Origin: Terriglobia bacterium
Lineage (GTDB): Bacteria > Acidobacteriota > Terriglobia > Terriglobales > Acidobacteriaceae
Direction: 5' to 3'
DNA length: 64,000 bases
Assembly: GCA_020072845.1 (NCBI GenBank)
Contig: JAIQGF010000001.1
Span: 1 to 64,000 of the forward strand
The translations under genes were made by a program, and so were the position numbers. Numbering within the stretch: position 1 is the first letter of the stretch; each line of letters begins with the position of its first letter. Positions 1 through 4,296 of the stretch are shown piece after piece. Under the pieces are notes generated by a model. The model did not search any database and was not told where the DNA came from. It saw only the letters and a program-made list of their open reading frames with translations.

Positions 1-3
1 TAA

Positions 4-84
4 AGCTGTCAGCCATCAGCTTTCAGCTCTCAGCCAAACCGGCGGGAGCACAAGCTGATAGCTGAAAGCTGATAACTCAGAGCA
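4..84. repeat. Inverted word array near atpD/atpG
   Basis: Two arms built from the word AGCTGA/TCAGCT: a left arm at about 4-35 and a right arm at about 52-84, roughly reverse-complementary, around a short GC-rich loop. This is the same architecture as the other gene-end arrays in the window. Here it lies just upstream of the beta-subunit start at 95, where an atpG-atpD spacer would be expected, so it is probably that spacer in inverted orientation. Confidence 0.7.
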
Positions 85-94
85 AAGAATTCAT

Positions 95-139
95 ATGTCA
101 GAAAACTTCGGAAAAGTGATTCAAGTTGCCGGGCCGGCG
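95..139 (+). pseudogene. atpD: atpD 5' fragment (F1 beta subunit N-terminus), inverted
   Basis: An ATG at 95 opens a frame reading MSENFGKVIQVAGPA. This is the canonical start of the F1 ATP synthase beta subunit (family pattern xGKVxQVxGPxVDVxF). After residue 15 the resemblance stops and the frame runs antisense through atpG. The sequence before the ATG (GAATTCAT) is the same as that before atpA, as expected for a sibling gene of one operon. The rest of atpD is not joined to it. I read this as the inverted first 15 codons of atpD brought against atpG, by a real inversion or by an assembly chimera. See the finding on this junction. Confidence 0.75.
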
Positions 140-573
140 CGCTCGGTTTGTTCCGGAGTCGCGGTCGGGAAGCGGCGGCGGAACATATCGCGCCCCTTGC
201 GGCGGACGGCTTCGATATCGACAATTTTGCCTTCGTTGGCCGCGAAAAAGCGGAAGGCGGCCTTGATGATGTTGGCGTTAAACGCCCCTGCCAGGCCGCG
301 GTCGGCGGTGACCACGATGACCAGAATGTTCTTCTCCGGACGTTGCGCCAGCAGCGGATGGCGTGGCTCGCCCGTTTCCGGGTCGAAGATTTCGGCGCGC
401 GAGACCAGCGACTTCAGGACGTTGGTGAGCATCTGCGCGTACGGTCTCGCCGACAGCGCCCGGTCCTGCGCCCGGCGCAGCCGCGCCGCCGAAATCATCT
501 TCATCGCCTTGGTGATCTGCCGCGTGTTGCGCACGCTGCGAATCCGGCGGCGAATATCGAGTATGTTTGCCAT
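121..573 (-). CDS. atpG: ATP synthase F1 gamma subunit, N-terminal half only
   Basis: The gamma subunit is the rotor shaft of F1, coupling proton flow to ATP synthesis at the inner membrane. The 150 residues start MANILDIRRRIRSVRNTRQI and contain TKAMKMISAARLRRAQ, the conserved N-terminal helix. VTADRGLAGAFN follows near residue 90. Full gamma proteins are about 290 residues, and the conserved C-terminal helix is absent. The frame meets TGA just where the opposite strand becomes the start of atpD, so the missing half was probably carried away in the inversion. It follows a 54-aa ORF and atpA on the same strand. Identity is certain; whether a functional gamma exists depends on sequence to the left. 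Confidence 0.9.
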   Translation of the reverse strand: MANILDIRRRIRSVRNTRQITKAMKMISAARLRRAQDRALSARPYAQMLTNVLKSLVSRAEIFDPETGEPRHPLLAQRPEKNILVIVVTADRGLAGAFNANIIKAAFRFFAANEGKIVDIEAVRRKGRDMFRRRFPTATPEQTERAGPAT

Positions 574-680: not shown

Positions 681-845
681 CTACTTCTTCCCTGCCTTGG
701 CCTGCTGCGCCACTGCCGCGTTCATGATCGTCAACTGGCGCGCCACTTCCAGCACGCCGAGCGCGGTGGCGAGGGCGACTTTGTCCGCCGCCCGCGGCAG
801 CCGCTTCGTGTCCTCGATCAAGGTTTCGATCTCTTCCAAATTCAT
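681..845 (-). CDS. 54-aa conserved-looking ORF between atpA and atpG
   Basis: A small ORF starting MNLEEIETLIEDTKRLPRAA and ending QQAKAGKK, with a good ribosome binding site (GGGAGG) shortly before the ATG at 845. It lies 48 bases after the atpA stop and is followed by atpG, so it is co-directional and inside the ATP synthase operon. Composition predicts a soluble, mostly helical polypeptide with no signal peptide and no membrane segment. I do not recognise a family. It could be a small operon-specific protein or a chance ORF. The strong ribosome binding site, protein-like composition and snug placement favour a real gene. Confidence 0.6.
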   Translation of the reverse strand: MNLEEIETLIEDTKRLPRAADKVALATALGVLEVARQLTIMNAAVAQQAKAGKK

Positions 846-3823: not shown

Positions 3824-4296
3824 TGCGCGCTCCCGGCCGGACGCTGCACGCCTGCCACCGGCCTCAGAATGATGCGAATGACTGCGCTCGCCAGCCGTTC
3901 GCTTTGCGGCAGCAACTGGCGCTTGGCAGCCTCCAGTTCCTGGAAGACGCTTTCGCGCGCCTGGGCCACCTGCTGCTGGGCCCGCTCCCGCGCCTGCGCG
4001 ATCGCTGCCGCGCGGGCTGCCAGCGCCTTCTGCCGGCGCACTTCCTGCGCCTTGAAGATGGCCACGCGGGCCTCACGCAACCGCTGCTCGTATTCACCGG
4101 TCTTGGCCTCGGCCGCCGCAACATCGGCGCGCGCCTTTTCGATGGCTCCCTCGGTTCGCTGATAGCGCTCCTGGAGCACCGATTCCAGTTTGCCGTGGAC
4201 GATCAGCCGGTAGGAAAAGTACGTGACCAGGAACAGGACGATGGTCGGAACCGATCCGAGCAGTAATCCGCCTAATTGTCGGAGTGTCTCTTCCAT
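3820..4296 (-). CDS. ATP synthase Fo subunit b' (second b-type stalk)
   Basis: A 158-residue b-type stator subunit. One membrane helix lies near residues 8-28 (LLLGSVPTIVLFLVTYFSY). A highly charged coiled coil follows with motifs such as RYQRTEGAIEKARADVAAAE. It is the first gene of the operon and overlaps atpF by 4 bases. Organisms with two different b genes (b and b') build a heterodimeric stalk, and I infer the same here. The a and c subunits (atpB, atpE) are not in the window and must be encoded elsewhere. Confidence 0.85.
   Translation of the reverse strand: MEETLRQLGGLLLGSVPTIVLFLVTYFSYRLIVHGKLESVLQERYQRTEGAIEKARADVAAAEAKTGEYEQRLREARVAIFKAQEVRRQKALAARAAAIAQARERAQQQVAQARESVFQELEAAKRQLLPQSERLASAVIRIILRPVAGVQRPAGSAQ

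Follow-up and report, generated by a model that had tools for sequence, protein, structure and literature searches.

An apparent atpG/atpD inversion at the start of a Terriglobia contig is very probably an assembly artefact

At the start of the DNA analysed here, a truncated atpG lies against the first codons of atpD, and the two genes point in opposite directions. The window (the whole stretch analysed, 64,000 bases) is C1:1-64000, and its first base is the first base of contig C1. This contig has 304,141 bases; it is one of 27 in the source genome (G000), which totals 4.23 Mb and has a listed completeness of 100%. Does the organism carry an inversion that cuts two ATP synthase genes, or does the contig begin with sequence that belongs elsewhere? 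We conclude that the apparent inversion is very probably an assembly artefact at the contig end, a conclusion that includes the variant of a join made by the assembler alone. In our reading the atp operon is ordinary, is cut by a contig break and carries a false terminal arm, and the inversion is not a real feature.

One atpG gene on two contigs

The plus strand at window positions 95-139 reads MSENFGKVIQVAGPA, residues 1 to 15 of the beta subunit of F1 (atpD). The minus-strand ORF 573-121 (150 aa) runs from the gamma N-terminus to ...TERAGP (residue 148) and then adds two foreign residues, AT. The Pfam family ATP-synt matches residues 4-135 of this ORF over profile positions 2-128 of 285 (E=9.9e-38). 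A sequence-only reading of this DNA had placed the beta N-terminus on the plus strand at 95-139 and gamma on the minus strand from 573, and the translations and the Pfam match bear this out. The first 139 bases consist of the atpG-atpD intergenic stretch and the first 15 atpD codons, and very probably do not belong to the left of atpG (Table 1).

Table 1. Features of the ATP synthase locus at the start of the window
Feature	Position	Strand	Basis or remark
Terminal arm, very probably false	1..139	-	Inverted exact copy of C15:72765-72903 (139/139); L104 position 3979-4110
First 15 atpD codons, duplicate of the intact atpD on C15	95..139	+	Translation; match to C15
11-base core CCGGGCCGGCG, putative fold-back crossing point	129..139	.	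Common to atpG (C1 minus strand) and atpD (plus strand)
atpG, true N-terminal part (gamma residues 1 to 148)	129..573	-	Continues on C15 from right end 73490 downward
atpA, intact, 512 aa	894..2432	-	Usual order and direction, upstream of atpG

The search of the source genome with PF00231 gave two partial matches, each corresponding to one half of a single atpG. The second lies at C15:72894-73451, near the end of that contig (73,490 bases), and covers profile positions 140-285; with positions 2-128 on the C1 ORF, the family is present at full length across the two contigs. C15 reads on past both sides of 72765-72903, into the gamma C-terminal half on one side and a complete atpD on the other. 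The latter is one open frame of 493 residues, with the N-domain at C15:72567-72788 and the nucleotide-binding domain at C15:71736-72398. The absence of the gamma C-terminal half from C1 had been taken as a sign of inversion; this interpretation is not supported, since the half sits on C15 with the intact atpD. The end of C15 (...GGACCGGGCC) closes with seven bases, CCGGGCC, that recur in C1 at 129, and when the gamma halves of C15 and C1 are set end to end a single frame runs across the junction (...TERAGPVQTVGEHIG...). The joined gamma aligns to the 345-aa gammas of L104, L099, L100 and L101, except in its C-terminal tail.

Second, inverted copies of atpG and atpD in the genome were also considered. 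They were ruled out by the PF00231 result (two halves, one gene) and by the search with PF02874, in which one match was found besides that of atpA. A third PF00006 match, at C3:119603-120214, has no counterpart in the PF02874 search.

C15 itself is probably not free of faults. Compared with all eight relatives chosen, the atpG of C15 (locus L008) is ten alignment columns short at its 3' end, and the gap sits exactly at C15:72903/72904, the first base of the 139-mer. The C15 gamma frame misses the stop used by those eight relatives and gains a tail from the intergenic repeat. The gap is probably an assembly fault, with a real deletion at this place as a conceivable alternative. Since it falls exactly at the start of the 139-mer, C15 was probably joined at that node too, and its atpG tail is not trustworthy. 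Because C15 seems misjoined here, less confidence can be placed in the link between the gamma C-terminal half and the 139-mer than in the passage from the 139-mer into atpD, and it is this passage that contradicts a fixed inversion.

Between atpA and atpG there is also a 54-aa ORF (window 681-845, minus strand), possibly encoding a small operon protein. A Pfam search with it gave no match at E<=0.1. With tblastn, matches of 53-90% identity were obtained in 9 of the 35 loci searched, which come down to 6 distinct places, four of them in the same genus and the remaining two in two different other genera of the family.

Gene order in related genomes

A pattern scan for the gamma stretch adjoining the junction, which possibly did not extend to the records of the source genome itself, matched a single contig, L104 (JAIQFM010000234.1, titled as a Terriglobia MAG, isolate SRVP_22; identical to G001:C133). 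On this contig, which is of the same genus, atpA, atpG and atpD are collinear through the junction point. C1 from base 129 maps to L104 position 3388 and downward and the end of C15 to 3382, and the two overlap by 7 bases on one atpG; the terminal arm of C1 is placed separately, in inverted orientation. Identity to L104 is 91.0% for C1 129-861, 96.0% for C1 871-2437, 86.7% for C1 2513-2986 and 93.4% for C15.

Gamma also reads through the junction place in 8 of the 10 relatives' loci compared (L104, L099, L100, L101, L012, L024, L010 and L103). For the other two, the wrong ORF, of 38 aa, was picked in L023, and the rule used gave none in L009. In the G008 gamma (L103, G008:C37), about 30 extra residues are inserted immediately ahead of the C1 break point. 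G001 has two full-length atpG loci on short contigs, L101 (G001:C51) and L102 (G001:C133). One of them is far closer to G000 than the other, and this bin may mix two strains or species.

The search was extended to 41 genomes (the source genome and 40 relatives), in 36 of which gamma was found. Window 80-220 had matches in 12 of the 41, with the best 21 candidates scored in many genomes. Among the candidates scored, no match crossing the junction was reported in the 40 relatives, and only the window itself crosses it. In three same-genus genomes (four operon copies), the two arms lie on opposite strands, about 0.7 kb apart.

The 139-base arm and the 11-base core

The length of the arm recurs at other contig ends, which lends weight to the fold-back alternative of the sequence-only reading. 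For all 54 contig ends, the outer 300 bases were compared with only the terminal 4 kb of every end; C26 (6,365 bases) and C27 (4,131 bases) are so short that their two 4-kb ends overlap. At six of the 54 ends (C1_L, C8_L, C24_R, C20_L, C23_L and C27_L), the outermost 139 bases are an exact tract shared with another contig. C1_L pairs with the inside of C15, C8_L with C24_R, and C23_L with both C20_L and C27_L, the last two pairings being of one element. In addition, C5_L and C9_R share 134 bases, stopping at base 139 of C9_R. Besides C1/C15 there are thus two independent exact 139-base sites and one near one. C1_L is the only one of the 54 ends whose first 139 bases are matched at 100% away from another contig's terminus, within the 4 kb compared; for C8_L and C24_R there is a 96.4% match in the interior of the C10 end.

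These tracts are as expected of k-1 overlaps in a de Bruijn graph with k=140. Chen and Banfield, in their passages on contig ends (PMC10914622), describe how contigs that de Bruijn assemblers break at repeats keep overlapping ends, of length maxK or, with IDBA_UD, maxK-1, and maxk=140 is a setting published there. A literature search for the assembler settings of the source genome found none. Terminal similarities of other lengths were also observed: C20_L/C27_L (171 bases, 97.7%), C3_L/C12_R (about 300 bases, 91-92%), C24_L/C22_R (62 bases, 93.5%) and C7_L/C21_L (19 bases, exact). The k-1 reading does not account for these.

The junction coincides exactly with a short inverted match, the 11-base core. 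On the collinear map the atpG copy of the core begins at C15 coordinate 73484 and the atpD copy occupies C15:72765-72775; the two are inverted, and the first starts 709 bases after the second ends. C1:1-139 and C15:72765-72903 thus represent an inverted joining of two nearby stretches. Inverted 11-mer pairs within 1 kb numbered 6 in the 2.5 kb examined, at three separate places; four came from one repeat and one was the core. In 100 first-order Markov sequences the mean was 3.09 and the maximum 11. Inverted 11-mers are therefore common here by chance, and only the position of the core at the junction is informative.

The arm also contains a short dispersed repeat (window 4-83, AGCTGATAGCTGAAAGCTGA-like) with an inverted partner; its copies lie at window 5-34 and 54-83. 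At least 32 further partial matches were found in the source genome outside C1:1-160 and C15, among the best 40 of 80 candidates. This intergenic repeat was considered as the cause of the junction and rejected, because the junction coincides with the 11-base core rather than with the repeat.

Artefact, inversion or assembler-only join

The artefact very probably arose as follows. The organism's order is atpA - atpG - atpD in one direction, and the assembly broke inside atpG, so that its N-terminal half is on C1, while C15 carries the C-terminal half and atpD. A fold-back molecule, formed during amplification or library making and paired at the 11-base core, most likely created a chimeric graph path in which a reversed stretch, from upstream of atpD into the gene, was joined to the N-terminal half of atpG across the 11-base match. 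In the graph this false path would have persisted and the true link dropped out. The start of C1 would then be the last graph node of the false path, of 139 bases (k-1 for k=140). Two points of this account are inferences: the origin of the junction in a chimeric molecule (a fold-back from library making or amplification), and the use of an IDBA_UD-like assembler at k=140.

A toy k-mer graph was built from the collinear sequence and one fold-back molecule at four k values. At k=140 the chimeric unitig starts at window base 1 and the atpD unitig starts with the same 139-mer. At k=100 and k=120 the start moves to 41 and 21, and at k=160 no start falls inside C1; among the four values, only k=140 puts the fork at window base 1. 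The loop unitig carries the 139-mer. The toy graph retains the true link, so that the 267-base chimeric piece and the gamma N-terminal half come out as separate unitigs. It therefore reproduces the start position of C1, not C1 or C15 as a whole. The artefact reading does not explain how the false link came to be retained at the expense of the true one. It also has against it that a simple fork should give the end of C15 a 139-base overlap with C1, whereas only 7 bases are shared and C15_R as query gave no match in the comparison of the 54 ends.

The junction might also have been made without any chimeric molecule, through a false join by the assembler during local assembly or scaffolding. This variant of the artefact is possible but rather unlikely. 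The probably faulty join of C15 only 139 bases away, where the 10 columns are missing, suggests that the spot was mishandled and speaks for it. However, the 11-base core falls short of the lowest k (mink = 20) given among the assembly settings of PMC10914622, and under such settings a shared k-mer alone would be insufficient.

Either form of artefact has to be weighed against a real inversion. A fixed inversion, with atpG cut and atpD reversed, has in its favour the sequence of C1 only. C15 crosses the atpD breakpoint (C15:72765) without interruption and continues into a complete atpD that has its own start, and the genome search gave one beta-type gene with an N-domain besides atpA and the two halves of one atpG. 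Since C15 passes this breakpoint in the usual order (atpG C-terminal half, intergenic stretch, complete atpD), a fixed inversion was rejected and is hardly conceivable. It is very unlikely that part of the population carries a real inversion, spanning about 0.7 kb from one 11-base core to the other, of which one junction was assembled. Such an inversion would account for a junction precisely on an inverted match and, judging from the toy graph, it would result in the same 139-mer fork as a chimeric molecule. On the other hand, its reciprocal junction has 0 matches in the source genome with up to 2 mismatches allowed, the candidates scored for window 80-220 in the 40 relatives include no reported crossing of the junction, and the arms are separate and on opposite strands in the three same-genus genomes. 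It would also break both gamma and beta, subunits that are normally essential. The collinear junction, as contiguous sequence, likewise has 0 matches in the assembly; with both junctions absent, the assembly alone does not weigh the two readings. It is the relatives and the loss of two normally essential subunits that weigh against an inversion in a mixed population. That a minority of cells carries such a flip in atpG/atpD as a means of switching the F1 ATPase off is extremely unlikely.

The sequence-only reading had left an inversion and an assembly or amplification fold-back side by side. The fold-back is the part that stands, while a real inversion is opposed by the unbroken run of C15, the missing reciprocal junction and the in-frame abutment of the gamma halves. 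If true, the inversion would mean a switchable loss of F1 ATPase, but its sole support is one probably false junction. As this case illustrates, what looks like a rearrangement of essential genes at the terminus of a contig can be a graph artefact, recognisable by the fixed length of the arm (139 bases) and by the continuation of the gene on another contig.

The proposed artefact resembles several described phenomena. As in the contig-end overlaps that the COBRA work treats in those passages (Chen and Banfield, PMC10914622), an exact tract of fixed length, here 139, occurs at several ends. It differs from them in that the tract of C1 lies inside C15, 588 bases from its end, and would come from a false path, not from a genomic repeat. 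For multiple displacement amplification (MDA), the results on chimeras in Lasken and Stockwell (PMC1855051) give more than 85% of rearrangements as inverted and more than 70% of junctions as primed at 2-21 complementary bases. The present junction is likewise inverted, of nearby origin (709 bases) and on an 11-base match, which is within that range, and MDA would be one possible source of it. In the account of PDSM given in PMC10908179, strand-switching fold-back reads arise at inverted repeats in sonicated libraries. Those reads come from human capture libraries; they share with the fold-back proposed here the switch to the opposite strand at an inverted repeat.
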